From NCBI RefSeq assembly GCF_900221005.1, contig NZ_OBQI01000001.1:434001-498000 (forward strand): DNA of 64,000 nt, read 5' to 3'. The notes under the pieces are model-generated. The model saw nothing but the letters and a program-made list of their open reading frames with translations, was not told the DNA's origin and searched no databases. This DNA comes from Blastococcus aggregatus. Lineage in GTDB: Bacteria; Actinomycetota; Actinomycetes; Mycobacteriales; Geodermatophilaceae. The translations under genes and the position numbers were made by a program. The first letter of the stretch is position 1. Each line of letters begins with the position of its first letter. This document shows, piece after piece, positions 40,501-53,089 of the stretch.

Positions 40501-40515
40501 ACGTTGAAGCGGAAC
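40501..40515 (+). repeat. attL: displaced copy of the ychF 3' end
   Basis: ACGTTGAAGCGGAAC, identical to 52020-52034. On the minus strand it still encodes the ychF ending FRFNV, followed by TGA, as expected if the original chromosomal 3' end was displaced to the far side of the island by integration. Confidence 0.75.
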
Positions 40516-40784: not shown

Positions 40785-43700
40785 TCACCGTCCCATACGC
40801 GGTCCGGCACCCGGACGTGGTCCGAGGCTCGACGGTGGCGGTGGCGGTGGCACATGGACGGGCCACTCGTTCGGGGTTCTCCGAACGTCGCCTGCTCGGC
40901 GGGCAGTCCGCTCGGCGTTCCGTCGGCGGGCACGCCACGCGTCGTGCTCATGGGCGAGCCGCTCGGCAGGCTGCGCCTGGGCCGGTTCGGCGGCGGGGAT
41001 GGCGAGGTGTTCGGCCCGGAGGGTGGCGATGCGTGCCCGGGCGTCGGTGAGCTCCTGCCGGGTGGCGGCGATGTCTCGGTCCAGCTCGGCGAGCCGCGCC
41101 TCGAGCTCGGGGGTCCAGGCGGCTGGTTCCAATCCTCGGAGTCGCTGGTCGCGTTGGCCGTGGGCCTCGGCCAGCGCGGACCGGGCCTGCTCGTGCTGCT
41201 GCCGTGCGGCGTCGGCGGCGGCGCCCTGGGCGCCGTGCTCGGGGTGGGCGGCTTCGGCGGCGCGCTGAGCGGAGGTGTCGAGTGCCGCCCACAGCGCTGG
41301 TCGGTCATCGAACCAGCCGGCCAGGCGCGCAAGCTCCTTCGCATCGCTGGGCAGGGAGGAAACGTGGGCGCGCCATCGGTCGGCCCAGTCGGCGAGCTGC
41401 TCGCCGGCGCGGGCGACCGCGCCCCGGCGCAGCCCGAGCCGGCCGGGCCCGTCGAGCACGACCTTCGCCGCCGCGCGGGCGGCCCCGCGTTCGCCGTCCC
41501 AGGAGCCCAGCAGTCTGTCGCGGATCCGGTCGGCCTCGGTGGCGACCGCGGCCGCGCTGGCCTGGGCCCGCTGGTGGGCCTGCTGGGCGGCGATCGCCGC
41601 CCGCTCCCGGGCGGCCCCCAACCTCGCGAGTTCGCCGGCGTGGGGAGCTTCGAGCGCGACTACCTCTCGCAGCTGGTCGCGCTGCGGCTGCCAGAAGGCC
41701 AGCCGGTCCAGGCAGTTCTGCTCGACGGTCCACGCCCGATGCAGGTCCGCCACGACGTGCTCCAGGGGACGAGGTGCGGCGTAGCGGGCGGCCTCGGCGG
41801 CGGCCTGTTCAGCAGCGTGGGAGGGGCCGAGGTCGGCGCGGTCACGGGCGAAGACAGCGACCCACTGCTCACGAGCCTCGTCCACGTTGGCGGCGACCAG
41901 GTGGGCGGTGTTGGCGGTCCGGCCGCGGGTCATCCCCACGTACGCCGACGCCGCCCCGGTGCGCTCCCCAACCACCAGGTGCGTGGCAGTGACCGTCTCC
42001 CCCTGCACCCCGTGCGCGGTGCTCGCGTAAGCCAGATCCACGTGCGCGGTGACGTAGTCGGCGGGCAGCACCCGCGTCCCTTGCGGGTCCGGGGTGACAC
42101 CGCCGGGAACGTCCCCGCTGGCAGGGCCGGCGGGGGTGACAAGCAGCGCGCCGCTTCGGCCGACGGCGGTGACGGTCCAGATGTCGCGGTTGGCCACGCC
42201 CAGGTCGCGGTCGTTGCGGCGGGTGGCGATCCGGTCCCCGACGCCGATCCGCTGCCCGGCCCCGGTGATGGCGACGCGCTGGTCGTCGACGCGGCCGTCG
42301 GCGGCCAGCCGGTCGCGGATGGCGGCGTTGAGGTCGGCGGCCTGCTCGCGCGTGTTCACCACCACCGCCACGGACTCGCCGCGGCGGTGGTGGCCGGCGG
42401 CGGCCGCCGCGATCGCATCCTGCAGCGCGGTCGCATCCGGGTGCAGCCGGATCTGCCCGCGCGCCAGCAGCGCGTCGAAGACCGCGGCGGGGTCGGCGCC
42501 GGTGCGCATGGCCAGGGTCAGGTCCGCGTACTCGGTGTCGGGCAGCACCAGGCCGGCGTCGCTGCGGGTGAAGCGATGCACCGCCTCGAGTGTCAGGTGT
42601 GCCGCCGGGTCGACTGCGTCGGCGGCAAGGTCCAGGACGCCGCCGCGGCCGACCGCGGCCAGTTGGTGCCGGTCGCCGAGCAGCGCCACCCGCACCTGGC
42701 ATTCGTCGGCGACGGTGAGCAGGGCGCGGGCGGTGTCCTGGTCCAGCATCCCGGCCTCGTCGACGACCAGCAGATCCCCCGGACGCAGCCGCGCCCCCGC
42801 CTCCGTCGGGCCGGCGTAGACCCGGCCGGTGACCGGATCGGTGTCGCCGGTCGCGAGCCGGGTCCAGGCGCCGTCGGCGTTCCACCGCCAGCCGTGCTGG
42901 TAGGCGAGGGACGCCGCCGACCCGGCCGCCGCGCCCACCTCCGCGGCGGCGACCTTGGCGGCCTTCAGCGTCGGGGTGACCACCACCATCCCGCGGCCCT
43001 GGTCGTGGAGCAGGGCCCGGGTGGCGGCCAGGGTGGTGGTCTTGCCCGCGCCGGCCGCACCCTCCACCACGGCCAGCGGCCGGTCGCCGGACAGCGCGGC
43101 GACCGCCGCTGACTGGCCGGCATCCAGCCTCGCGCCGCCGCCCGGGAGGCCGACCGGCAGTGTCAGGCCCGCGTCCGGTCCGCCGGTCGCGGCGCGGGCG
43201 GCGAGCCGGGCGGTCAGGTCGGCCTCGACCTCGAGCACCAGCTGCGACGTCCAGGCCCGGAGGTGCTCGGGCACCCCGTCGCGGTCCAGCAGCGGCAGGC
43301 AGCGGTCCATCGCGCGGGCGGTGAGGTCCTCGGCCAGCTCGAAACGCATTGCCGCCCCGGCGACGACGCCCGCGGCGGCGATCAGCCGCTCGACCTCGCC
43401 GCGGACGTCGGCGGCGTTCCACGCCGACCGGCCGGCCGCGAGCCGGGCCAGCGTGCGCTGCACCAGCTGGTCTCGGTCGAGGGCACCGACCGGGGTGGGC
43501 GTCAGGTCCACGGGGCCGGCCGGGTCGCGGTAGCCCAGGTCGTACACCCTCGTCCGCCAGCGTTCCGCCACGTTCGTCCCCGGCTGCGGGGTCACCTTGT
43601 CCGGGCGGCCGTCGGCCCAGGCGCGGGCGTCCCACGCGCGCCGCAGCGCCGGGCCGGGGCGTTCGCCGGGGTGCGTGGCGGTCCATTCGGCTTCGTAGCG

Positions 43701-44459
43701 GTCCACATTCCGGGCGATCTGCGCATGCCGTGCGCTGAACGGGCCGGCATAGTCGGCGAGCTCCTGTATTTCTCCAGTAGCGTCCTTCGTGTAGCCGTGC
43801 GCGGCGAAGGCGGCGTTCAATTCCGGGTCACACGCCATCGCCGCATGCCCGATGCCATTGATCGCCCCGAGCGAGTCCCGGACCCCGACGGTGTGCAGGC
43901 CTCGCCATTTCCCGGCGGCGAACACTCGGGACAGGATCTGCAGGTGCAGATGCCAGTGCGGATCGTTGGCGCGGGAGGTGTAGTGCCGCACCGTCGCCGC
44001 CTCAAGCACCTCCAGCGGCACCTGCACCTGCCCGCCGCGCGGGCCGACCCTGGTGGTGGCGTGCTGCGAAAGCCAGCCGATGATCTGCCCGGCCGCCCGG
44101 TCCTGCGCCGCCTCGTACGCGGCGGCGATGTCCGGATGCAGCGCGGCGGCCAGCGACCAGGTCTTCGGGCCGTTGACCACCACCTCGACGAACCGCACCG
44201 CCCGGTCGTCGTCGCGCAGCCGCCCCCGCGGCTGGCCGGTGTCCGGGTCACGGCCGGCGACCCAGGTCTCGTATCCATCGCCGGTCAGCGGGACCAGGTC
44301 GGCCACGCGGGCATCGGTGGCGGTGAAGCGGCGGGCGAACCCTGTCCCCTCGGCCAGGTAGTAGTCATCGGCCCGCCCCCGGTCGGCCTCCACATAGGCA
44401 CGGGCGGCGGCCGGGTCGCCGACGTACACCTTCATTCCGCCGTGCATTTCCAACGCCAC
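40785..44459 (-). CDS. MobF-type conjugative relaxase-helicase (TrwC/TraI-like)
   Basis: A 1224-residue protein. The relaxase domain (residues 1-350) begins near MKVYVGD, has paired tyrosines YY at 33-34 and the three-histidine metal motif HWHLH near residue 180. The helicase part has Walker A VEGAAGAGKTTT (about 480), Walker B LLVVDEAGMLD and AYASTAHGVQGETV (about 810). The last 300 residues are Ala/Gln-rich helices. It would nick and unwind the element at oriT for transfer. The start is uncertain: GTG at 44459, ATG at 44447 or 44435. No coupling protein is encoded in the window. Confidence 0.92.
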   Translation of the reverse strand: MALEMHGGMKVYVGDPAAARAYVEADRGRADDYYLAEGTGFARRFTATDARVADLVPLTGDGYETWVAGRDPDTGQPRGRLRDDDRAVRFVEVVVNGPKTWSLAAALHPDIAAAYEAAQDRAAGQIIGWLSQHATTRVGPRGGQVQVPLEVLEAATVRHYTSRANDPHWHLHLQILSRVFAAGKWRGLHTVGVRDSLGAINGIGHAAMACDPELNAAFAAHGYTKDATGEIQELADYAGPFSARHAQIARNVDRYEAEWTATHPGERPGPALRRAWDARAWADGRPDKVTPQPGTNVAERWRTRVYDLGYRDPAGPVDLTPTPVGALDRDQLVQRTLARLAAGRSAWNAADVRGEVERLIAAAGVVAGAAMRFELAEDLTARAMDRCLPLLDRDGVPEHLRAWTSQLVLEVEADLTARLAARAATGGPDAGLTLPVGLPGGGARLDAGQSAAVAALSGDRPLAVVEGAAGAGKTTTLAATRALLHDQGRGMVVVTPTLKAAKVAAAEVGAAAGSAASLAYQHGWRWNADGAWTRLATGDTDPVTGRVYAGPTEAGARLRPGDLLVVDEAGMLDQDTARALLTVADECQVRVALLGDRHQLAAVGRGGVLDLAADAVDPAAHLTLEAVHRFTRSDAGLVLPDTEYADLTLAMRTGADPAAVFDALLARGQIRLHPDATALQDAIAAAAAGHHRRGESVAVVVNTREQAADLNAAIRDRLAADGRVDDQRVAITGAGQRIGVGDRIATRRNDRDLGVANRDIWTVTAVGRSGALLVTPAGPASGDVPGGVTPDPQGTRVLPADYVTAHVDLAYASTAHGVQGETVTATHLVVGERTGAASAYVGMTRGRTANTAHLVAANVDEAREQWVAVFARDRADLGPSHAAEQAAAEAARYAAPRPLEHVVADLHRAWTVEQNCLDRLAFWQPQRDQLREVVALEAPHAGELARLGAARERAAIAAQQAHQRAQASAAAVATEADRIRDRLLGSWDGERGAARAAAKVVLDGPGRLGLRRGAVARAGEQLADWADRWRAHVSSLPSDAKELARLAGWFDDRPALWAALDTSAQRAAEAAHPEHGAQGAAADAARQQHEQARSALAEAHGQRDQRLRGLEPAAWTPELEARLAELDRDIAATRQELTDARARIATLRAEHLAIPAAEPAQAQPAERLAHEHDAWRARRRNAERTARRAGDVRRTPNEWPVHVPPPPPPSSLGPRPGAGPRMGR

Positions 44460-44498: not shown

Positions 44499-44538
44499 GG
44501 CCCCGCGAAGCGGGGCCCGACCTACCTCCCGAAGGTAG
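44499..44538. promoter_or_regulatory. Paired hairpins upstream of relaxase (candidate oriT region)
   Basis: A perfect 9-bp stem at 44499-44507/44511-44519 with a 3-nt loop is followed by a 6-bp stem at 44522-44527/44533-44538. They lie 40-80 bp upstream of the relaxase start and next to a tandem repeat array, where MobF origins of transfer are often found. The structures are seen; the oriT role is inferred. Confidence 0.4.
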
Positions 44539-44544
44539 CATGCG

Positions 44545-44648
44545 TGCCGTCTCCTGGGGGGATTCTCTGATGCCGTCTCCTGGGGGGATTCTCTGATGCC
44601 GTCTCCTGGGGGGATCCTCTGATGCCGTCTCCTGGGGGGATCCTCTGA
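44545..44648 (+). repeat. Four tandem 26-bp repeats
   Basis: Units at 44545, 44571, 44597 and 44623, each beginning TGCCGTCTCCTGGGGGGAT and ending CTCTGA. Units 1-2 read GATT and units 3-4 read GATC at one position; otherwise they are identical. No spacers occur between units, so this is not a CRISPR array. Iteron-like protein-binding sites for transfer or replication are the likeliest use. Confidence 0.85.
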
Positions 44649-44725
44649 TGCGGCAGGGTAAGCCGACCTGAGTCGATGCACGAGAAGCCGAAGTTGGATT
44701 TGACCTGAGGGCCAATGATCGTTGA

Positions 44726-44914
44726 ATGGTTGGAACATCGACGGACCTCAAGATCACAGTCGCCGAGTACATCGACTGGTTCAACCACATACGGCTGCAC
44801 GGTGATATCGGGCTCGTCCCACCCGCCGAGCACGAGGACAACCACTACCGCCGCAACCCCCGCCCCGACACAAGTCAGTTCACAGCCTCCACTAAACCCA
44901 GCGCGGGACACTGA
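44726..44914 (+). pseudogene. IS3-family transposase, C-terminal remnant
   Basis: Only the last 62 codons remain. YIDWFNHIRLHGDIGLVPPA, followed by a HYRR region, is the end of the IS3-type DDE integrase core. The catalytic D, D and first part are missing. A short frame to its left is unrelated, so the element was truncated by deletion. Confidence 0.75.
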
Positions 44915-45090
44915 GCGCCCTTCACCAAGGTTGCCGGTCGGCTCGTCGGCCAGCCGGCTGGGCCGGTCGAGCCAGTGTGCGGACGATGGTGACGCACTGC
45001 CTCTCCCCGCCCGATAGCGTCCGGGCGATGACGTCCGATCTGAACTCAAGCCCTACGGCCGCCAGCGCCCCCACTGCAGCCGTCTCACTG
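44915..45090 (-). pseudogene. ABC transporter ATPase remnant (MacB/LolD-like)
   Basis: On the minus strand, GALAAVGLEF and LSGGERQCVTIVRTLARP (ABC signature) are followed, after a frameshift near 44950-44990, by RLADEPTGNLGEG (Walker B and D-loop). The rest of the protein is absent on both sides. It is a decayed fragment of an exporter ATPase, perhaps once part of the cargo cluster. Confidence 0.7.
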
Positions 45091-45245
45091 GACCCTTCGG
45101 ACAGTCTGGATAGCGCAGACCCATGTGCACGTCCTCTCGGGCGCCGAGCACCCGAAGCGCTCGCTGGCGTGCTGGCAGCGCTGGTGGCAGAAGCGTCAAG
45201 TTCTCGCCTCACCCGCCGCTTCTGATACCGAGGGCATCCGGAACC

Positions 45246-45275
45246 TTGCGGTCCGTATCGTGGGCGCGCTAGCTT
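45246..45275 (+). promoter_or_regulatory. Candidate promoter ahead of the MFS gene
   Basis: TTGCGG at 45246-45251 and TAGCTT at 45270-45275 with an 18-bp spacer, in a gene-poor AT-richer stretch. It would give a leader of about 215 nt before the MFS start, containing the short frame at 45352. Confidence 0.4.
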
Positions 45276-45351
45276 CCTAGACATTCCTCCCACGGGGGCG
45301 AACTCGTCGCTTCTAGTCGCGCGCGCAGCCGTCAGCAGTATGGGGGGTGAC

Positions 45352-45501
45352 ATGTGGGCCACAGGCGGCACATCCCAGAGGGCCTGCGGCTGGATCCACA
45401 TACCTGACGGAGAGCACATTCCCCGCCCCTGTGCGACCTCCGCCGCCCAGCTTCGGACCTCGCCAGCCCGACTTGCGGGCTACGAAGGACGCGTGAGATG
45501 A
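45352..45501 (+). CDS. Possible 49-residue small protein coupled to the MFS gene
   Basis: The ATG at 45352 (or in-frame ATG at 45340) follows GGGGGGTGA and the frame ends in TGA overlapping the MFS ATG (ATGA). The sequence contains CGWIHIPDGEHIPRPC, with two cysteines and two histidines. It matches nothing I recognise. It may be a leader, a small accessory protein, or chance. The case rests on the stop/start overlap and the purine-rich site. Confidence 0.3.
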   Translation: MWATGGTSQRACGWIHIPDGEHIPRPCATSAAQLRTSPARLAGYEGRVR

Positions 45502-46733
45502 GAAAATCGGTTCCAGAGTTCGGTTACCGGCGACTCTTACAGTCGCCGCAAGTAAGAAGACCATTCGTCGCGACGGCGCTGGGCCGACTTTCCTACGGGA
45601 TGCTCAGTTTGGCGCTACTGCTAACGGTGGCTGGGGCAAGCAGCTATTCAACGGCTGGCGCAGCGCTTGGCGTGTTCGCCATCACGACGCTGACCATGCC
45701 GGCCAAGAGCCGACTGGTGGACCGATTCGGACAGCCTCGGGTCTTGCCCGCACTGTCGGTAGTCCTGGCTACGGCACTTATCCTCTTAGCGCTTGCCGCC
45801 GAACAACCGTCGACCCGCGGCTGGACCTTTGTGGTCCTAGCCGCCATCGCCGGGCTGGCAGCCCCTCCATTGGGCCCCTCTATGCGCGCCGTTTGGGCGG
45901 AACTGATCGGTCAGCCCGATCAGCGGCAACGCGCCTACGCGTTGGATGGACTCGTCGAGGAGCTGGCCTACGCGCTCGGCCCCCTGGCTGTGACCGGGGT
46001 TATCGCCGTGACCGGAGCATCAACCAGCATTATCGCAACTGCGCTCCTGAATCTCGGGGCTACGCTTGGCTTGGCGACCGCCCCCGTTGTTAGACGCCTC
46101 CACGCGGCCACCGCGACCCGGCGCCCGCGGGCACGCCAGTCTGTCCTTCGCATACCCGGCCTACTGATGTTGATTGCCGTGACCGCGGCGATCGGTTTCG
46201 GTACCGGCCCGCTGACCGTCGCCGTAGCGGCGCGCATAAGCGAATTCGGCCGACCACAGCTCGCCGGCGTCCTGCTCGCTGTCCTGTCAGTGTCCAGTGC
46301 CGTCGGCGGTCTCCTGTGGGGCCGAAGCCAGCACCGGCGCCGCCGCTCCGTTCAACTGCAAGCGCTGGCGGTTGTGCTAGCGGCCGGAAGTGCGCTGGCC
46401 GCCGTCGCTCCCTCGGCCTTCTGGCTCGCTGGAGCCTTGGCCGTCATCGGCATCGCCAGCAGCCCGGCTCTGATCGTGGCCTTTCTGGGCAGCGACCAAC
46501 TGTCGCCGTCTCACCACCGCACCGAAGCCACGACTTGGATCAGCACCGGAAATAACGGTGGAGTCGCCCTGGGCTCGACGCTCGCCGGGGTACTCATCGA
46601 CCTGAACGGTGCAACGACGGTTTTCGTCTGCGGCGCCGCAACGCTCTGCGCGGTCGCACTCGCTCTGAGCGGTCGGCAGCGCAGCCTAAACGGTTCGGAA
46701 GCGGATAGAACGGTTGAGGCTGCGCAGAGTTAG
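45498..46733 (+). CDS. MFS transporter, probable exporter of the peptide cluster
   Basis: A 411-residue integral membrane protein with about twelve helices. The loop 2-3 motif is degenerate (KSRLVDRFGQPRVLP), and the second half begins VLRIPGLLMLIAVTAAIGFG. AAGGA lies eight bases before the ATG. It is convergent with the methyltransferase gene, 68 bp apart. Its lower GC third positions match the modification genes rather than the flanks. Export or immunity for the modified peptide is inferred from context. Confidence 0.85.
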   Translation: MRKSVPEFGYRRLLQSPQVRRPFVATALGRLSYGMLSLALLLTVAGASSYSTAGAALGVFAITTLTMPAKSRLVDRFGQPRVLPALSVVLATALILLALAAEQPSTRGWTFVVLAAIAGLAAPPLGPSMRAVWAELIGQPDQRQRAYALDGLVEELAYALGPLAVTGVIAVTGASTSIIATALLNLGATLGLATAPVVRRLHAATATRRPRARQSVLRIPGLLMLIAVTAAIGFGTGPLTVAVAARISEFGRPQLAGVLLAVLSVSSAVGGLLWGRSQHRRRRSVQLQALAVVLAAGSALAAVAPSAFWLAGALAVIGIASSPALIVAFLGSDQLSPSHHRTEATTWISTGNNGGVALGSTLAGVLIDLNGATTVFVCGAATLCAVALALSGRQRSLNGSEADRTVEAAQS

Positions 46734-46801
46734 CCAGCCTGGCCGCGCGGACCTCGGACTTCGTCCGCAGGTTGCTTATCGACGGATTGTGAACGGCGGA
46801 C

Positions 46802-47563
46802 CTAGTTGCCGTACACCGAGATGTGCCGGTCCGCAGTCGGACTCCACGGGCGACGACGATAGTCGGCATACCTGGCCGCCAAGCTGAGGCCGGCCTGCTG
46901 CGCCATATCGTCCAACTCCGCCGCGGACGAGTAGCGAAGTCTGATCTGGCGCAGACGCACGGGAGCCGAGTCTTCCAGCGTGGCGAAGTAGGCTGTCGTA
47001 ATCCCGGTCCTGTCGTCGTAGCCGGTCGCCTGCACGGTCAGTGCCGCCTCAGTCGCCGCGAAAAACGTCACCTCACGGTTCGGACGGCCAGCCCGGCTGC
47101 AGTCCACGACGAACCTGCCCTGCTCGCCCAGGTTCGCTGCCGCACTGGTGAAGCAGTCTTGCTGTTCCTCGAGCGTCAAGAGGTGGAACAGCGTATTGAA
47201 GCTGCAGTAGACGAGCGCATAACGATCCACCGACCTGTACGTCCGCATGTCCGCCGTGACGGCGCGAATGTTGGTCAGCCGGGCGGCAGCCGCGACTGAA
47301 TCGATGTGGGCGGTGCAGGTCGGCGACAGGTCCAGCGCGTGCGTCGGGATTCCAGCTGCGGCCAGCTGCAACGCCAGCCATCCACGTCCGGCTCCGAATT
47401 CAAGCGCGGCCCCGCCGGCGGCGGCGTCCTGCAAGAAGGCAATCTGGTCAGTGACACACTCTGCGCCCTCACCGACAGACGTCACTTCGGCCGAGTCGAA
47501 CCATTGCCTGATGTAGGACGCCGCCGCCAAGCCGCTGGCGTCAGACTCGGACACCCGCAGCAT
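46802..47563 (-). CDS. SAM-dependent methyltransferase of the peptide cluster
   Basis: A 253-residue class I methyltransferase. Motif I is ALEFGAGRGWLALQLA (residues 53-68), the acidic loop ALDLSPTCTAHI follows, then AVTADMRTY and the motif-IV-like YALVYCSFNTLFHLL. GGAAGG precedes the ATG, and it lies 39 bp behind the second HExxH gene, so it is the last gene of that operon. It may methylate the peptide or be a tailoring enzyme for a released product; the site is unknown. Confidence 0.85.
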   Translation of the reverse strand: MLRVSESDASGLAAASYIRQWFDSAEVTSVGEGAECVTDQIAFLQDAAAGGAALEFGAGRGWLALQLAAAGIPTHALDLSPTCTAHIDSVAAAARLTNIRAVTADMRTYRSVDRYALVYCSFNTLFHLLTLEEQQDCFTSAAANLGEQGRFVVDCSRAGRPNREVTFFAATEAALTVQATGYDDRTGITTAYFATLEDSAPVRLRQIRLRYSSAAELDDMAQQAGLSLAARYADYRRRPWSPTADRHISVYGN

Positions 47564-47602
47564 CCGCCTTCCACACCGAGTCGACTAGCTTCGTCAGGGG
47601 CG

Positions 47603-48430
47603 TCAAACGACCGCCGCCTGCGGCGAGGCGATTGACTCCAGCTCTCCAAGCAGGCGCTTGCCGTTGTCGTCGAGAACCCAGTCCCGCTCGCGCAGCTCGA
47701 GCAAGGTGACGTCGAGAGCTGGCCGCAGTCGATCGACCTGGTCGGCGAGCTCCCCCTCCCCCAGGGCGTAGAGAAGCCCCGCTGACACGGCCGCGGAGTG
47801 GAAGGCCAAGTAGTACGGCCGGCGGTCTGCGCGGATGGAACTGGTGACGAGGGCGTCTGGTTGCGACTGTCGCTCGGCATCGACCCCGAAGACCCCTCGA
47901 ACCATCTCCTCGAGGAACAGGCTCTGGTGCAACGTCTCGTGGAGAATGTTCTCGCAGATGGAATCAACGCGCTGGTTGGACTTCGGCGCAGTCCAAATGG
48001 TGCCCAGCAGGCCGCCTGCCGACCCTCCCTCAGAGGTCCGAGAGGCCGCCACCAAGACTCGGCCGACCAACAGACGAACGGTCTCGTAACTCGGTGCGGC
48101 GACTCCCTTCAGCCGGGAGAGAGCCGCCTTGACGGTGCGGATGTCCCGCTCAGTCGTCGACATACCCGCAGCGTCCGACTCGAAGCGGTGCTCCTTGCTC
48201 AACAGGGCCAGCAGGGCCAGGTCATCCGCGCGCTCACTGATTCCGGCGACCGCCGGGTCCACCTGCTCCGTAGCGAGGTATGTGCGCTGCGGTGGCTGCA
48301 CCTGACTGAGCGCCGTGACGTAGCGCTCGCCCAACGGCCGGTCCGTGTCAATCGACATCGCATCCGCGAGTAATGCCATGCTGGCTTTCACGCGGTTGGC
48401 GTCCAGCAGACTGTAAGCGCTGACGGTCAT
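47603..48430 (-). CDS. HExxH-motif putative peptide-modifying enzyme (paralogue 2)
   Basis: A 275-residue protein. Its metal motif HETLH is at residues 164-168, with a likely third ligand His211 in YYLAFHSAAV. From about residue 158 to the end it aligns with the neighbouring paralogue (FLEEMVRGVFG / FLEDMVRSIFS; LELRERD...NGK). This pattern matches the mod_HExxH group, described as putative alpha-ketoglutarate-dependent peptide beta-hydroxylases of RiPP pathways. The ATG overlaps the stop of the upstream paralogue (ATGA). A longer frame upstream is inside that paralogue. Confidence 0.7.
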   Translation of the reverse strand: MTVSAYSLLDANRVKASMALLADAMSIDTDRPLGERYVTALSQVQPPQRTYLATEQVDPAVAGISERADDLALLALLSKEHRFESDAAGMSTTERDIRTVKAALSRLKGVAAPSYETVRLLVGRVLVAASRTSEGGSAGGLLGTIWTAPKSNQRVDSICENILHETLHQSLFLEEMVRGVFGVDAERQSQPDALVTSSIRADRRPYYLAFHSAAVSAGLLYALGEGELADQVDRLRPALDVTLLELRERDWVLDDNGKRLLGELESIASPQAAVV

Positions 48431-49269
48431 CGGGTCGCCTCCATCGGTCGCGAGGACTCCTGCAGCGCTCCGAGCAGATCCTCCATATTTGCCAACACGT
48501 CCTTGCCATTGCCCGTCAAGAACTGATCGCGTTCCCGGCATTCAAGAAGAGTCTCAGCCACGGCGTCAAGCGATAGGGCCGGCACTGTGAACGGCAGTTC
48601 ATGCCTGTACCGATACAACTCCAAAGCGACGGCCGCCGAGTGGAACGCCTTGTCGTAACCGCGCCGCTCCTTGAGAATTGCACTCTGAGTCAAACCGTCG
48701 GCCTCGGCCATCCGCGGAACGGACTCCGAGAAGATCGACCTGACCATGTCCTCAAGAAAGAGTGCGTTATGCACGTACTCGTGCAAGATCACGGCAGCGA
48801 GATTCGGAACGTCCCATGATCGCCGGGGGCTCAACCAGATACAGCCGATCACGTCCGATACGCTGCCACCGCCGAAGCGCGGATGCCGGGCGACGAAGAA
48901 GCCGCTGATGAGCAGATCGACCGCCGCCCGCGTGTCGCCAAGAGGCGTTAAGGCGTTGAGGCTCTCCGGCACGACCACGGCGAGCTCTGTCTGCTGGTCG
49001 GGACGGAGCTGCCAGCCATCGGGAAGGACCCCTTCGTTCATCAGGCGCAGCAGCGTCCGCTCCTCAAATCCCGGCGTGTCTGGCCATATCAGCGATGGGC
49101 CATCCGGCAGTACGGGTATGGGAAAGCGCTGCACCATGTTCAGTGCCTGCTGAAGTTCCTGACGACTCGGTGTTTCCGTCGAGGCGGCAAGTCCCGCGAA
49201 CTCTACGATCGCACGGGCGTTGGCTTGCACACGCTCTCGGCTGACAGCTCCAATCCCGACCGCATTCAT
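48427..49269 (-). CDS. HExxH-motif putative peptide-modifying enzyme (paralogue 1)
   Basis: A 280-residue protein with HEYVH at residues 163-167 and the matching His210 in YDKAFHSAAVALELYRY. The N-terminal 120 residues differ from the paralogue except for scattered positions, which may reflect distinct peptide recognition. The ATG shares one base with the precursor stop (TGATG), so it is made from the same message as the peptide. The family is zinc-protease-like by motif but is associated with peptide hydroxylation; I cannot prove which from sequence. Confidence 0.7.
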   Translation of the reverse strand: MNAVGIGAVSRERVQANARAIVEFAGLAASTETPSRQELQQALNMVQRFPIPVLPDGPSLIWPDTPGFEERTLLRLMNEGVLPDGWQLRPDQQTELAVVVPESLNALTPLGDTRAAVDLLISGFFVARHPRFGGGSVSDVIGCIWLSPRRSWDVPNLAAVILHEYVHNALFLEDMVRSIFSESVPRMAEADGLTQSAILKERRGYDKAFHSAAVALELYRYRHELPFTVPALSLDAVAETLLECRERDQFLTGNGKDVLANMEDLLGALQESSRPMEATR

Positions 49270-49487
49270 CAGATCGCGTCGTCCTCGTGGATCAGCATGA
49301 CGAGTGGCATAGCCAGCTCCTGCTGCTGCACGTACCGACTGATGTTTCCACCGACGGTGGCCACACCGGAATCGGCGGTTTCCACCGCGTCGTCCTCGTG
49401 GATCAGCATGACGAGCGGCATAGCCAGCGCCTGCTGTTCGACATACCTGCTGATGTTTGTCGAAATGCGATCGTCAGTAACCGTCAT
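49269..49487 (-). CDS. Two-core repeat peptide, probable RiPP precursor
   Basis: A 72-residue peptide: a 10-residue acidic leader (MTVTDDRIST), a first unit (11-35), a 12-residue linker ending Val-Gly-Gly, and a second unit (48-72) that ends the protein. The units agree at 22 of 25 positions, sharing NISRYV, QQ, and LAMPLVMLIHEDDA. GGAAGGGG lies seven bases before the ATG. It is the first gene of an operon with two HExxH enzymes and a methyltransferase. There are no Cys, and only two Ser/Thr in the units, so lanthionine chemistry is unlikely; hydroxylation of His, Asp, Asn or aliphatic residues would fit. Confidence 0.75.
   Translation of the reverse strand: MTVTDDRISTNISRYVEQQALAMPLVMLIHEDDAVETADSGVATVGGNISRYVQQQELAMPLVMLIHEDDAI
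49272..49457 (-). repeat. Duplicated 75-bp segment encoding the precursor units
   Basis: Unit 1 is 49383-49457 and unit 2 is 49272-49346, separated by 36 bp. They are similar at the DNA level as well as the protein level, with differences partly silent, consistent with an in-frame duplication kept under selection. Confidence 0.85.
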
Positions 49488-49537
49488 GACCGGCCCCTTC
49501 CTAATCGTGACAGTGCCGGAAGCACTGCCTGCGGAGG

Positions 49538-49566
49538 AAGTTAGGGACAGACAGTTAGCACGTCAA
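49538..49566 (-). promoter_or_regulatory. Promoter of the peptide operon
   Basis: On the minus strand, TTGACG (49561-49566), a 17-bp spacer and TAACTT (49538-49543). This is the best housekeeping-type promoter in the window. Transcription would start near 49531, giving a leader of about 44 nt before the precursor ATG. Confidence 0.7.
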
Positions 49567-50005
49567 TGGCCGATTTTGACGACACGCCGATGACGCACGA
49601 GCCGCTGTGGACTGACCTGCGAAAACGCTGAGTACAGCAACCCGCGTGTCGTTCGCCCGACACGCCCATGGTGCCCTTCTAAGCCCTCCCCAGGGGGTAC
49701 TGGGAGAGGCTGAGGCCGCAGATGCGCGACGGCTACTCGACGCGGGCCCGGCCGAACGCGTCATCACTTGATAGTCCCGGTAGCGGGACCCCAAAACGGG
49801 ACTGCCGGAGTGCGACAGCCGGACACATCCCGGCCAGCTCCCCATAACCGCTGCCTGGCCGGTTGGGGTGGGTCGGGGGAAGGGTGGGCCGAAGGCCCAG
49901 CCCGGAGGGCCGCGCAGCGCCCTTCCGGCGACCCAACACTGCCGGCATACTTTCGCGGAGGGAGCGGCTCCAGCGCGATCAAGGCTCGTCGTCCGAGTAT
50001 CCCGA
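49567..50005. other. Gene-free stretch with small hairpins
   Basis: About 440 bp without a supported gene, between the peptide operon promoter and the toxin-antitoxin genes. It contains several short inverted repeats, such as a 6-bp stem at 49774-49779/49784-49789 and one at 49885-49890/49894-49899. Function unknown; a transfer or replication site of the element is possible. Confidence 0.5.
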
Positions 50006-50011
50006 TACCCT
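50006..50011 (+). promoter_or_regulatory. -10 box of the VapBC-like operon
   Basis: TACCCT ends six bases before the antitoxin ATG at 50018, which has no ribosome-binding site, so the transcript is probably leaderless. Confidence 0.5.
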
Positions 50012-50017
50012 GTGATC

Positions 50018-50278
50018 ATGAGTTCCGTCGATGGCTGGGACCTGACGGTCCCCGAGGATGCAGCCGAGCTGCTCGCCGAGCTGCGCCGTCACGGCGTGCG
50101 GCCCGGTCACCGTCTGCATGTTGTGCGCGCGGACGAGGAGCCGGAGCAATCAAGCGGCGACGACGCTGCCCAGCCCATGCGCGCGAGGCTCGACTTCATC
50201 GGCTCGGTGCGCGGTGGTCCCGCGGATCTGTCCAGCCGCACTGACGAATACCTGCAGGGAGGCTTCGGCCGCGAGTGA
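50018..50278 (+). CDS. Putative antitoxin of a VapBC-type pair
   Basis: An 86-residue acidic protein. Its first half (WDLTVPEDAAELLAELRRHGVRPGHRLHVV) resembles the strand-helix start of antitoxins with a swapped-hairpin or ribbon-helix-helix fold; the rest is polar. Its stop overlaps the PIN-domain GTG (GTGA), the standard arrangement for an antitoxin before its toxin. The family is not firmly recognised, so the role rests on position. Confidence 0.7.
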   Translation: MSSVDGWDLTVPEDAAELLAELRRHGVRPGHRLHVVRADEEPEQSSGDDAAQPMRARLDFIGSVRGGPADLSSRTDEYLQGGFGRE

Positions 50279-50700
50279 TTCTCGTCGACACAAACGTCCT
50301 CGTCGCCGCTGCCCGGACCGCCGACACCAACCACGTCGCCGCGGCGCGACTGCTCGAGACCCTCGACGAGCCGCTGCTGGTTCCACCCACCGTGCTGGCG
50401 GAGGTCTGTTATCTCCTCAACGAGTGGGGTGGACCCGGCGCCGAGGTCCGGTTCCTCCGCGACATCCGGCCCGGCGGGCTAGAACTGGCAGAGTTGACCA
50501 CTGCCGACGTCGCACGCGTGGCCGACCTGGTTGAGCGGTACGCGGACCTGCGTCTCGGCGGAACCGACGCCTCGCTCGTCGCCATCGCCGAGCGCCTGCG
50601 CATCGATCGGATCGCCACCTTCGACCGGCGCCATTTCACGGTCGTCCGCCCCGCTCACGTCGCGACCTTCACTCTGCTTCCCGGGGTCACGTCAAGCTGA
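50275..50700 (+). CDS. PIN-domain ribonuclease toxin (VapC family)
   Basis: A 141-residue PIN-domain protein with all four acidic active-site residues visible: Asp in ILVDTNVL, Glu in LAEVCYLL, Asp in LGGTDASLVAIAE and Asp in RIATFDRRHF. Such toxins cut tRNA or rRNA when freed from the antitoxin. Here it would act as an addiction module keeping the island in the chromosome. It is translationally coupled to the upstream gene. Confidence 0.88.
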   Translation: MILVDTNVLVAAARTADTNHVAAARLLETLDEPLLVPPTVLAEVCYLLNEWGGPGAEVRFLRDIRPGGLELAELTTADVARVADLVERYADLRLGGTDASLVAIAERLRIDRIATFDRRHFTVVRPAHVATFTLLPGVTSS

Positions 50701-50841
50701 CCGGATGCCCGCCGGGCCGGGCGCGGCGCGCGGGCGAACTCCGCGGACGACGTCGGGGCACGAGCGCAGTGTCAGGCCATCGGACTACGTTCGGTCGCGT
50801 CGGTTGCCGGTGGGGTTCCATCGGGATTGAAGGGCGGAGCC

Positions 50842-51996
50842 ATGGCGAGCATCCAGGACCGATGGCGCCGCAGGGACCCGGCCACCGGCCGGCTGGTGCC
50901 CACGGAGCTGGACGGCAAGGGGCTGCGCTACCGCCCGCAATTCCGAGATCCATCTGGCCGCCAAATCATGAAGGGGTTCGCGCTCAAGCGGGACGCGCAG
51001 CGCTGGCTGACCGAGCAGACCGCCCACATCGTCCGGGGCACCTACGTCGACCCGGGCGCCGGCCGCACGACGTTCGCCGAGTTCTACGCGGCCTGGTCCA
51101 GCCGACAGGTGTGGGCACCGGGGACGGTCCTCGCGATGAACCTCGCGGCCGGTTCGGTGCCGTTCGCCGACGTCCCGCTGCGGTCGCTACGTCGCTCGCA
51201 TGTCGAGGGCTGGGTCAAGGGGATGGTCAACCGAGGTCTTGCCCCCGGAACCGTGCACACGCGGGTGAACAACGTGCGCGGCGTTCTCCGCGGCGCCGTC
51301 GCCGACAAGCTGATGGCTAGTGATCCGAGCGTCGGCGTCGCGCTCCCCCGGCGCCGCCGGGCGGCAGCCGCGATGACCCTGCCCACCGCGGCCCAGGTCG
51401 GCGGCGTCCTCCAGGCCGCCGACGACGCCTTCCGCCCGTTCGTCGCGCTCTGCGCGTTCGCCGGCCTGCGGCTCGGCGAGGCCGCCGCCGTCCAGGTCGA
51501 GGACATCGACTTCCTGCGGCGCACGCTCACAGTCACCCGCCAGGTGCAGCGAGGCGGCGCGGGCCGGGTCGAGTTGCGGCCGCCCAAGTACGGAAGCGAG
51601 CGGGTCGTCTTCCTCGCCCCAGGGCTTGTCGACATCCTGGCGGCGCATGTCGCCGCGTTCTGCCCGGGTGGTGGATGGCTCTTCACCGGAGAAGCGGGAC
51701 AGCCCCCGCACCAGAACACTGTCGGCTACCGCTGGCGCACCAGCACCGCGGCCGCCGGCATCGCGGGGCTTCGACTGCACGACCTCCGGCACTTCTACGC
51801 CTCGGGCCTGATCGCGGCCGGCTGCGACGTCGTCACCGTGCAGCGGGCCCTCGGGCACGCCTCCGCCACCACGACGCTGAACACGTACAGCCACCTGTGG
51901 CCGAGCGCCGAGGACCGCACACGGACCGCCGCGCAGGCCTTGCTCGCAGATTCTTGTGGACTGAGTGTGGATTGGGAGGGATCGACAAGCCGCTGA
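50842..51996 (+). CDS. Tyrosine recombinase/integrase of the island
   Basis: A 384-residue phage-type integrase. It has an N-terminal arm-binding-like region (GLRYRPQFRDPSGRQIMKGF), a SAM-like core-binding domain (residues 70-160) and a catalytic domain with Arg in AGLRLGEAAA, HDLRHFYASGLI, LGHAS and the nucleophile in NTYSHLW. AAGGG lies seven bases before the ATG at 50842; an upstream TTG is less likely. The gene ends 19 bp from the ychF stop, right at the attachment site, and its last codons contain the 19-bp repeat. Confidence 0.92.
   Translation: MASIQDRWRRRDPATGRLVPTELDGKGLRYRPQFRDPSGRQIMKGFALKRDAQRWLTEQTAHIVRGTYVDPGAGRTTFAEFYAAWSSRQVWAPGTVLAMNLAAGSVPFADVPLRSLRRSHVEGWVKGMVNRGLAPGTVHTRVNNVRGVLRGAVADKLMASDPSVGVALPRRRRAAAAMTLPTAAQVGGVLQAADDAFRPFVALCAFAGLRLGEAAAVQVEDIDFLRRTLTVTRQVQRGGAGRVELRPPKYGSERVVFLAPGLVDILAAHVAAFCPGGGWLFTGEAGQPPHQNTVGYRWRTSTAAAGIAGLRLHDLRHFYASGLIAAGCDVVTVQRALGHASATTTLNTYSHLWPSAEDRTRTAAQALLADSCGLSVDWEGSTSR
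51950..51968 (+). repeat. 19-bp direct repeat, right copy (inside int)
   Basis: Identical to 40616-40634. It lies in the last codons of the integrase gene, 51 bp before the right end repeat. Confidence 0.7.
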
Positions 51997-52015: not shown

Positions 52016-53089
52016 CTACACGTTGAAGCGGAACTCCACGACGTCGCCGTCGGCCATGACGTACTCCTTGCCCTCCATGCGGACCCAGCCCTTGGACTTG
52101 GCCTCCGCCATGGAGCCGGCCTCGACCAGCTGGTCGAAGGAGACGATCTCGGCCTTGATGAAGCCGCGCTGGAAGTCGGTGTGGATGACGCCGGCGGCCT
52201 GCGGAGCGGTGGCGCCGACCGGGATGGTCCAGGCGCGCGCCTCCTTCGGGCCCGCGGTCAGGTAGGTCTGCAGCCCGAGGGTGCGGAAGCCGACCTTCGC
52301 GAGCTGGTCGAGACCGGGCTCGTTCTGCCCGATCGACTCCAGCAGCTCCGCGGCCTCGTCGGCCGGCAGCTCGATCAGCTCGGACTCGGTCTGCGCGTCC
52401 AGGAAGATCGCCTCGGCCGGCGCGACCAGTGCCCGCAGCTCGTCCAGCTGCGCCGAGTTGGCCAGCTCGTCGGCGTCGACGTTGAAGACGTACAGGAACG
52501 GCTTGGTGGTGAGCAGGCTCAGCTCGCGCAGCGGCTCGGGGTCGACCCCGGCGGCGAAGAGGGTCTTCCCCTCGTTCAGCACCTCCTGGGCGGCGACCGC
52601 GGCGTCGTGCAGGACCTTGCGGTCCTTGTCCTTGCGCGACTCCTTCTCCAGCCGCGGGACCGCCTTCTCCAGCGTCTGCATGTCGGCCAGCACGAGCTCG
52701 GTGTTGATCGTCTCGATGTCGTCGGCCGGGTCGACCTTGCCCTCGACATGCACGACGTCGGGGTCGGTGAACACCCGGATCACCTGGCAGATCGCGTCGC
52801 TCTCGCGGATGTTGGCGAGGAACTTGTTGCCGAGGCCCGCCCCCTCGCTGGCGCCGCGCACGATGCCGGCGATGTCCACGAAGGACACCGTCGCCGGGAT
52901 GATCTTCTGCGACCCGAAGATCTCGGCCAGCTTCTCCAGCCGCGGGTCGGGCACGCCCACCACGCCGACGTTCGGCTCGATCGTCGCGAACGGGTAGTTC
53001 GCCGCGAGCACGTCGTTCTTGGTCAGGGCGTTGAAGAGGGTCGACTTGCCGACGTTGGGCAGGCCGACGATCCCGATGGTGAGGCTCAC
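52016..53089 (-). CDS. ychF: Redox-regulated ATPase/GTPase YchF (OLA1 family)
   Basis: A 357-residue P-loop protein. G1 is GLPNVGKSTLFNALT, the G3-like DIAGIVRGASEGAGLGNKFL follows, an NVDAD segment replaces the usual NKxD, and the C-terminal TGS-like domain ends in EFRFNV. YchF binds ribosomes and prefers ATP. The final codons coincide with the island attachment site: the present stop (TAG) and last codon come from the island side, so integration rebuilt the gene end without changing the protein. The GTG start follows a TAACCT box. Confidence 0.95.
   Translation of the reverse strand: MSLTIGIVGLPNVGKSTLFNALTKNDVLAANYPFATIEPNVGVVGVPDPRLEKLAEIFGSQKIIPATVSFVDIAGIVRGASEGAGLGNKFLANIRESDAICQVIRVFTDPDVVHVEGKVDPADDIETINTELVLADMQTLEKAVPRLEKESRKDKDRKVLHDAAVAAQEVLNEGKTLFAAGVDPEPLRELSLLTTKPFLYVFNVDADELANSAQLDELRALVAPAEAIFLDAQTESELIELPADEAAELLESIGQNEPGLDQLAKVGFRTLGLQTYLTAGPKEARAWTIPVGATAPQAAGVIHTDFQRGFIKAEIVSFDQLVEAGSMAEAKSKGWVRMEGKEYVMADGDVVEFRFNV
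52020..52034 (+). repeat. attR: ychF-end copy at the integrase side
   Basis: ACGTTGAAGCGGAAC, identical to 40501-40515. It covers the ychF codons for FRFNV. Confidence 0.75.

Follow-up and report, generated by a model that had tools for sequence, protein, structure and literature searches.

Iron- and α-ketoglutarate (2-oxoglutarate)-dependent HExxH (aKG-HExxH) enzymes that act on ribosomally synthesized and post-translationally modified peptides (RiPPs) are already known as a family, as is the logic of a precursor gene paired with such an enzyme. A crystal structure, 8s5f, was released in 2024 and the peptide-oxygenase papers date from 2025–2026. According to the available text of these papers, ChlBH hydroxylates Asp and His (PMC12636437), PflC and PosC hydroxylate Gln with oxidative backbone cleavage at ARMD, leaving a C-terminal amide (PMC12636437), and PesO hydroxylates Pro (PMC13060819), the characterised enzymes being found beside or fused to radical S-adenosylmethionine (SAM) enzymes or multinuclear non-heme iron-dependent oxidative (MNIO) enzymes (PMC12636437, PMC13060819). 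Here we describe a 64,000-nucleotide stretch of Blastococcus aggregatus DNA (NZ_OBQI01000001.1, positions 434,001 to 498,000; hereafter the window), in which a minus-strand operon of a small peptide gene, two HExxH genes and a methyltransferase gene is carried by an integrative element. We consider it likely that this is a RiPP biosynthetic operon in which oxygenases of the ChlH type act on a two-repeat precursor.

The closest described enzyme is ChlH (ChlBHExxH, 8s5f), the β-hydroxylase of a cyclophane RiPP, with which the window enzymes share the fold of their structure models, aligned HExxH, Ser, Arg and His residues and a probable peptide substrate; Asp and His, the target types of ChlBH, are both present in the window core. 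ChlH is fused to a radical SAM enzyme whereas the window enzymes stand alone, and no radical SAM match was obtained among the nine window proteins scanned (five of the operon block and four of the element), to which the search of the assembly was confined; the partner or fusion that marks ChlB-type cyclophane pathways was thus not found among them. PflC and PosC, encoded in the Pseudomonas pfl and pos clusters, are likewise stand-alone enzymes beside a small precursor and transporters, with no cluster protease described in the available text, but their precursors have nitrile-hydratase-like leaders and poly-Gln-ARMD cores and they have an MNIO-nitroreductase partner, whereas the window encodes a short N-I-x-x-Y/MLIH peptide. 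PesO, from the pes cluster of Peribacillus, is also an aKG-HExxH hydroxylase of a RiPP cluster but its partners, according to the available text, are an MNIO, a nitrile synthetase and M16 peptidases; no counterpart of these was recognised among the window proteins. An earlier note on this DNA, made from the sequence alone, had called the pathway probably undescribed and had not recognised the core from any described class, and we likewise found no description of the peptide-HExxH family in searches of the open-access literature. By that literature, the precursor type, the stand-alone setting with no radical SAM or MNIO enzyme recognised, the duplicated recognition-core unit and the spread over two phyla are new.

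Two HExxH enzymes of probable ChlH fold type

Both HExxH proteins passed the 40-bit cut-off of TIGR04267 (aKG-HExxH peptide beta-hydroxylase) by small margins, HExxH-1 with 44.2 bits and HExxH-2 with 40.3 bits, the latter score being obtained with one extra residue before the start. When the whole genome was searched, the two enzymes scored 44.4 and 41.0 bits and no other match was found in the assembly, and in a control set of 14 genomes only Haloferax gave matches, which were under the cut-off. In the NCBIfam and Pfam scans no metallopeptidase family reached its cut-off for either protein. The best peptidase-like Pfam match of HExxH-1 was the putative aminopeptidase family PF10023 (15.1 bits, 25 being needed), and HExxH-2 had no match in a Pfam scan to an E value of 1. 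The proposal of the earlier note that these proteins are of the peptide β-hydroxylase type therefore passed the family test, narrowly. Since HExxH-1 and HExxH-2 are 40% identical across 155 aa, we take them to be diverged paralogues.

Structure models were built with AlphaFold2 (mean predicted local distance difference test scores of 82.1 for HExxH-1 and 74.1 for HExxH-2). The best match in the PDB was ChlH (8s5f) for both models, with E values of 1.3e-08 and 4.8e-08, respectively, and a probability of 1.00, and the second was SjiH (22ob) for both. Peptidases followed with E values of at least 0.15 for HExxH-1, where aminopeptidases came after SjiH, and of at least 1.6 for HExxH-2. An alignment of 18 family members had ten invariant positions, including HExxH, a Ser, an Arg and a later His, and a sequence search with the profile built from these 18 rows (A6) recovered ChlH (E 0.00058), the HExxH motif and the Ser, Arg and His residues being aligned with their ChlH counterparts. 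A narrower profile (A3) gave only weak chance matches to Cas6 in the PDB. The later His (H210) was considered as a universal third metal ligand, but because SjiH has Gln in its row we assign no ligand role to this residue.

HExxH is also the motif of zincin peptidases, and the two proteins could in principle be conventional metallopeptidases with a role in the maturation or breakdown of the small peptide, which would then be a leaderless bacteriocin, a signal peptide or an antitoxin. The weak PF10023 match of HExxH-1 points the same way, as does the hydrolysis of a truncated, leaderless substrate by PflC, described in the available text of PMC12636437. Both proteins, however, score above the cut-off of the hydroxylase family, the E values of their model matches to ChlH and SjiH are lower by orders of magnitude than those to any peptidase, and the ChlH-aligned Arg and later His are invariant in 18 of 18 rows, so that we regard this alternative as very improbable. 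HExxH-1 and HExxH-2 are probably Fe(II)/2-oxoglutarate peptide oxygenases of the ChlH fold type, as judged from family models and predicted structures.

The two-unit precursor and its probable counterparts on plasmids and a phage

The peptide encoded at the head of the operon is composed of two units, NISRYVEQQALAMPLVMLIHEDDAV (unit 1) and NISRYVQQQELAMPLVMLIHEDDAI (unit 2), and the description of it in the earlier note as essentially two copies of a 25-residue unit was correct (identities in Table 1). Over the 14 codons of the core, LAMPLVMLIHEDDA, one silent change is the sole difference between the units, and the duplicated piece is the whole unit, a recognition-like segment together with its core. 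As also stated in that note, the stop of the precursor gene and the start of HExxH-1 are joined by TGATG and the stop of HExxH-1 and the start of HExxH-2 by ATGA; the methyltransferase gene starts 39 nt past HExxH-2, with no overlap, and by gene reading the four genes form a real operon on the minus strand. The two enzymes very likely modify this small peptide.

The same note placed the operon behind the best promoter in the window, which did not hold. The candidate promoter before the peptide gene (TTGACG-17-TAACTT at 49566) scored 8/12 by a simple count of agreement with TTGACA/TATAAT. Over the whole window a score of 8 occurred in 45 site/spacing combinations, two of which were the pre-peptide site, and a score of 9 in three others. 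A stricter scan of positions 44500–51000 at a threshold of 9/12 gave no site, with 0.6 expected.

A tblastn search of plasmids detected nine records with related enzymes, and the S. aureus enzyme as query again detected nine, plus one phage. We examined eight of these, namely seven plasmids (L029–L033, L035 and L036) and the phage (L034), leaving out a second Acinetobacter plasmid, the enzyme of which was 100% identical to that of the first, and Streptomyces NBC_00690. In 6/8 records the HExxH gene directly follows a gene for a small peptide that combines N-I-x-x-[YF] with M-x-[IL]-[HK]: S. aureus pPH1-1, three S. warneri plasmids (two of them nearly alike), a Cytobacillus plasmid and Bacillus phage SPbetaL1. 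The window peptide has both marks twice, once per unit. A precursor gene beside a modifying-enzyme gene is thus kept as a pair in the window and in six of the eight records, and homologous precursors were found beside homologous enzymes. Together with the placement of the enzymes in TIGR04267, these pairs make the RiPP interpretation of the earlier note well supported as far as sequence and model comparisons go.

The four relatives scanned from S. aureus, S. warneri and SPbetaL1 scored 44.1–58.2 bits against TIGR04267. The Bacillota precursors are single-unit peptides of roughly 37–70 aa, the start codons of which are not all certain. A major facilitator superfamily (MFS) gene was found near the peptide in five of the eight records (L029–L031, L035 and L036), all among the six with the motif. 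The pPH1-1 enzymes, annotated as HEXXH motif-containing putative peptide modification proteins, are encoded by tandem twin genes as in the window, the only twin among the eight records; neither "HEXXH" nor "peptide modification" appears in the main text of the pPH1-1 paper (PMC6491766). In the S. warneri 16A plasmid the enzyme gene is shortened and adjoins an annotated IS257-type transposase, and in Cytobacillus the enzyme is split over two frames. The SPbetaL1 peptide and its single HExxH gene (L034:4780-5876; OQ921341.1 32646-33742) are annotated as hypothetical proteins. The parent SPbeta prophage carries the glycocin sublancin.

The remaining two of the eight records were from Nocardia, with a peptide ending in MMGGWT, and Acinetobacter. 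In the Acinetobacter plasmid p12SAAs474 (L033:5487-7986), a 71-aa peptide with IPLRMIAYEDM, which resembles MPLVMLIHEDDA in the window, lies before an HExxH gene, the product of which scored 55.0 bits against TIGR04267, and a weakly ABC-transporter-like gene is present at this locus. With the window precursor as query, plasmids gave no match; the SPbetaL1 peptide had no match in plasmids either and none in phages other than itself, and scans of viral contigs found nothing.

We then evaluated the link between the window and Bacillota precursors. With a profile of five Bacillota precursors, the window peptide ranked first among 895 six-frame segments with 14.3 bits, the next scoring 2.9 bits, the match spanned both marks in both units, and none of 2000 letter shuffles reached this score. 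The pattern NI..[YF].{8,22}M.[IL][HK], which was written after all of the peptides had been seen, was searched in six frames of 57 sequences (1,135,820 codons, overlapping loci and stops included). All six Bacillota peptides contain it, every copy of the window peptide contains it two times, and the only other occurrence was in an unrelated antisense frame; none of 200 shuffles of the window frames contained it. Taking motif, position and enzyme homology together, we consider the link probable.

Compared with the window, the Bacillota loci have the precursor motif, the enzyme family and the peptide-then-HExxH order in common, with an MFS gene nearby except in SPbetaL1; they differ in their single-unit peptides, in that no methyltransferase was recognised and in their ryptide-exporter-type MFS proteins. 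The loci also bear on how the twin enzymes of the window divide their work. One HExxH protein might be the catalyst and the other a binding partner, as in a heterodimer, or a regulator that competes for the peptide, as in nitrilobacillin biosynthesis, where PesH faces competition for its partner PesI from the MNIO-like PesX (PMC13060819, available text), and HExxH-2 has the lower family score and the longer branch. On the other hand, HExxH, Ser, Arg and the later His are present in both enzymes, neither of which looks catalytically dead, and a single enzyme gene, interrupted in one case and lying in two frames in another, would have to suffice in five of the six Bacillota loci. We therefore think such a division of roles quite unlikely.

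The integrative element and related loci in other actinobacteria

The operon is cargo of a ∼11.5-kb integrative element inserted at the 3′ end of ychF (Table 1). An integrase, a repeat flanking the element at the end of a conserved gene and a relaxase, the components of an integrative mobilizable element, were all found, and by its gene content the element is probably mobilizable. In a relative (G016), only 1.4 kb separates the left flank, which aligns as far as 40143, from the right flank, which aligns from 52020 onward; the stretch absent from G016 thus takes in the element and a further ∼0.36 kb on its left side. Copies of the ychF end of 43–44 bp were found 8.2 and 2.4 kb from ychF in G001 and G021, so that other elements probably use the same site, and G002 shares the integrase end; the ychF 3′ end seems to be an integration hot spot in the genus. 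GC content is 64–67% in the cargo, 75–77% in the relaxase gene and left flank and 69–70% on the ychF side. Given the element setting and the GC content of the cargo, the operon was probably acquired horizontally, which fits the plasmid and phage settings of its relatives.

Table 1. Positions in the window of the operon genes, the precursor units and the parts of the integrative element
Feature	Position	Strand	Basis
Precursor peptide gene, 72 aa, two units NISRYVxQQxLAMPLVMLIHEDDA[VI]	49269..49487	-	ORF reading; first of 895 frames by profile of five Bacillota precursors
Precursor unit 1, residues 11-35	49383..49457	-	
Precursor unit 2, residues 48-72; 22/25 aa and 65/75 nt identical to unit 1	49272..49346	-	
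HExxH-1, 280 aa, HEYVH, probable Fe(II)/2-oxoglutarate peptide oxygenase	48427..49269	-	TIGR04267 44.2 bits; model match 8s5f
HExxH-2, 275 aa, HETLH, HExxH-1 paralogue	47603..48430	-	TIGR04267 40.3 bits; model match 8s5f
Class I SAM methyltransferase, 253 aa	46802..47563	-	PF13649 E 1.4e-09
MFS transporter, convergent, candidate exporter	45498..46733	+	PF07690 E 3.8e-28
Left attachment-site repeat ACGTTGAAGCGGAAC, 15 bp	40501..40515		
Right attachment-site repeat, inside ychF 3′ end (last codons)	52020..52034		
Tyrosine integrase	50827..51996	+	PF00589 E 4.8e-19
MobF/TrwC-type relaxase-helicase	40785..44459	-	PF08751 E 6.5e-53
PIN-domain toxin-like gene	50275..50700	+	PF01850 E 8.9e-18

The PIN-domain gene is preceded by a small gene with no Pfam match, and the two possibly form a toxin-antitoxin pair, the antitoxin role being suggested by position only. 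Just before the relaxase gene, at 44545-44651, a 26-bp tandem repeat of 4.1 copies with 98% matches was found, and a short frame at 44726-44914 encodes the end of an rve_2 transposase domain (PF13333, 24.2 bits against a cut-off of 22) and looks like a remnant. Lying between the relaxase gene and this remnant, the repeat might, as a guess, be part of the transfer origin.

The best NCBIfam match of the methyltransferase was the daptide methyltransferase model NF041820, at 55.6 of the 175 bits required. The MFS proteins of Staphylococcus and Cytobacillus (L029, L030, L031 and L036 were scanned) had the ryptide-export MFS model as their best, with 147–234 bits against a cut-off of 575. These scores, below the cut-offs, do not place the window methyltransferase in the daptide class or the MFS proteins in the ryptide class. 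The likeness to ryptide exporters supports peptide export in S. aureus, S. warneri and Cytobacillus, as far as sequence similarity can tell. The window MFS protein was not among the matches listed for this model, and BLASTP found no significant similarity between it and the S. aureus plasmid MFS protein (best E 0.25). Since it lacks similarity to ryptide exporters, export by the window MFS protein is a guess.

In a BLAST search with HExxH-1, no relative was detected in the other 22 genomes of the genus or in the other 297 sampled genomes of the order, and a profile search did not find the enzyme family of the operon in the other 111 genomes of the family. Among 395 other genomes of the phylum, HExxH-1 had two matches, G648 and G415; the latter (L006) was dropped, as it overlaps a 667-aa frame read by eye as penicillin-acylase-like. 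With the profile, four genomes besides that of the window (G698, G767, G648 and G958) were found in a class sample of 394 and two (G648 and G464) in a phylum sample of 396, where the matches in G767 and G958 and the second match in G648 were weak and that in G464 (L039) was a further, distant relative with HETSH. A single-protein pattern search across genome contigs gave no close relatives.

Related HExxH enzymes were also found in 13 Streptomycetaceae loci, one in each. A small in-frame peptide with MMGGWT at or near its end precedes the HExxH gene in 10 of these (L017–L021 and L024–L028) and in Nocardia (L032), and was not seen in L016, L022 and L023 among the frames listed. As in the window, the peptide gene of these loci immediately precedes that of a related HExxH enzyme, and the leaders of some of the peptides contain N-[IV]-x-x-F, but the core differs (MMGGWT). 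A pentapeptide-repeat gene adjoins the locus in Streptomyces sp. NBC_00249 (L021, by Pfam) and in Nocardia (by eye). In the enzyme tree, nine rows of this group (8 of the 13 loci and Nocardia) formed a separate clade with support of 100/98, and by sequence the MMGGWT loci look like a separate RiPP group.

Another cluster (L015, G698:C169:1-12000) contains two HExxH genes on opposite strands, a radical SAM/B12-like protein, a methyltransferase, a halogenase-like flavoprotein and an MFS gene, the names being assigned by eye except for HExxH and MFS; it is apparently another RiPP pathway with twin HExxH enzymes. In the tree, the two window enzymes grouped with each other (93/92, under the starred level), the two from G698 likewise (100/99) and the S. 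aureus twins with SPbetaL1 (83/88), which tentatively suggests, given the flagged long branches, that twin enzymes arose more than once. Orthology of the window twins with those of pPH1-1 was accordingly rejected, as the tree suggests separate duplications, with the same caution about long branches.

Proposed pathway and its meaning

In the pathway that we propose, each precursor repeat would consist of a short recognition helix (N-I-S-R-Y...) and the core LAMPLVMLIHEDDA. With the N-I-x-x-Y segment as their binding site, the HExxH proteins would oxidise residues of the core, once in each unit, the most likely reaction being β-hydroxylation within M-L-I-H-E-D-D, at His, Asp or both. A hydroxyl, carboxyl or amine may next be capped by the methyltransferase, although the site and the order of steps could differ, host proteases would trim the product and the neighbouring MFS protein might export it. 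By analogy with known enzymes, the reaction in MLIHEDDA would be β-hydroxylation or oxidative backbone cleavage. Because of the targets of the known enzymes and the His and Asp residues of MLIHEDDA, we favour β-hydroxylation over oxidative cleavage and consider plain peptidase activity the least likely of the three.

Oxidative cleavage as the main reaction of one or both HExxH enzymes would leave the RiPP pathway otherwise the same: the acidic tail (HEDDA...) would be removed or the units split, and a C-terminal amide would be left. PflC and PosC, also aKG-HExxH enzymes, cleave in this way (PMC12636437, available text), none of the window proteins scanned was recognised as a protease, the residues past M-x-[IL]-[HK] vary in sequence and length between homologues like a discarded tail, and twin enzymes could divide hydroxylation and cleavage between them. 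The precursors, however, have no common ARMD-like tetrapeptide, and the His is kept in the peptides of five of the six relatives and in both window units, which would be odd for a mere cleavage site. PflC and PosC are, moreover, the only HExxH enzymes reported to cleave in the available text of PMC12636437 and PMC13060819. On balance, cleavage as the main activity appears unlikely to us, and we favour β-hydroxylation of the repeated core.

Several observations weigh against a RiPP operon with ChlH-type oxygenases. Both TIGR04267 scores barely clear the cut-off, the ChlH matches are loose (template modelling scores by query of 0.57 and 0.59, root-mean-square deviations of 8.0 and 11.6), and HExxH-1 has Gly after the invariant Arg, where at least 90% of the 18-member family has Pro. 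None of the scanned window proteins was recognisable as a protease, a RiPP recognition element (RRE) or an immunity protein. The link to Bacillota is uneven as well: none of the eight plasmid and phage records had a recognised two-unit precursor or a methyltransferase gene recognised beside the precursor, the core of SPbetaL1 has Lys where the other cores have His, and no MFS gene was recognised in this phage within L034:3400-9200. When the Bacillota profile was reduced to three lineages, the window peptide still ranked first but with an E value of 0.63 (6.0 against 2.8 bits). The reverse profile, built from the two units of the window, failed: among 1357 frames, two unrelated frames of the Cytobacillus plasmid led, L036 and L030 ranked 3rd and 9th, and the precursors of S. 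aureus, Cytobacillus and SPbetaL1 were not in the best 12. Finally, no second genome with the window's own version of the operon was found in the searched samples.

Tentatively, and with somewhat more doubt than confidence, we suggest that the loci represent a RiPP class that occurs in both Actinomycetota and Bacillota and travels on plasmids, phages and integrative elements. In such a class, free-standing HExxH proteins would be the central tailoring enzymes; a minimal N-I-x-x-[YF] helix would serve them for recognition in place of an RRE-read leader, and they would convert an M-x-[IL]-H core to β-hydroxy-His/Asp, perhaps for metal binding. In the window the unit and the enzyme would have been duplicated together. 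The spread over plasmids and a phage suggests a competition trait, which might be a bacteriocin or a metallophore. With one peptide, two aKG-HExxH enzymes and a methyltransferase, this compact operon would reveal the unaided activity of such enzymes, and the two copies within its precursor provide an internal test of processivity and of the specificity of the two enzymes.

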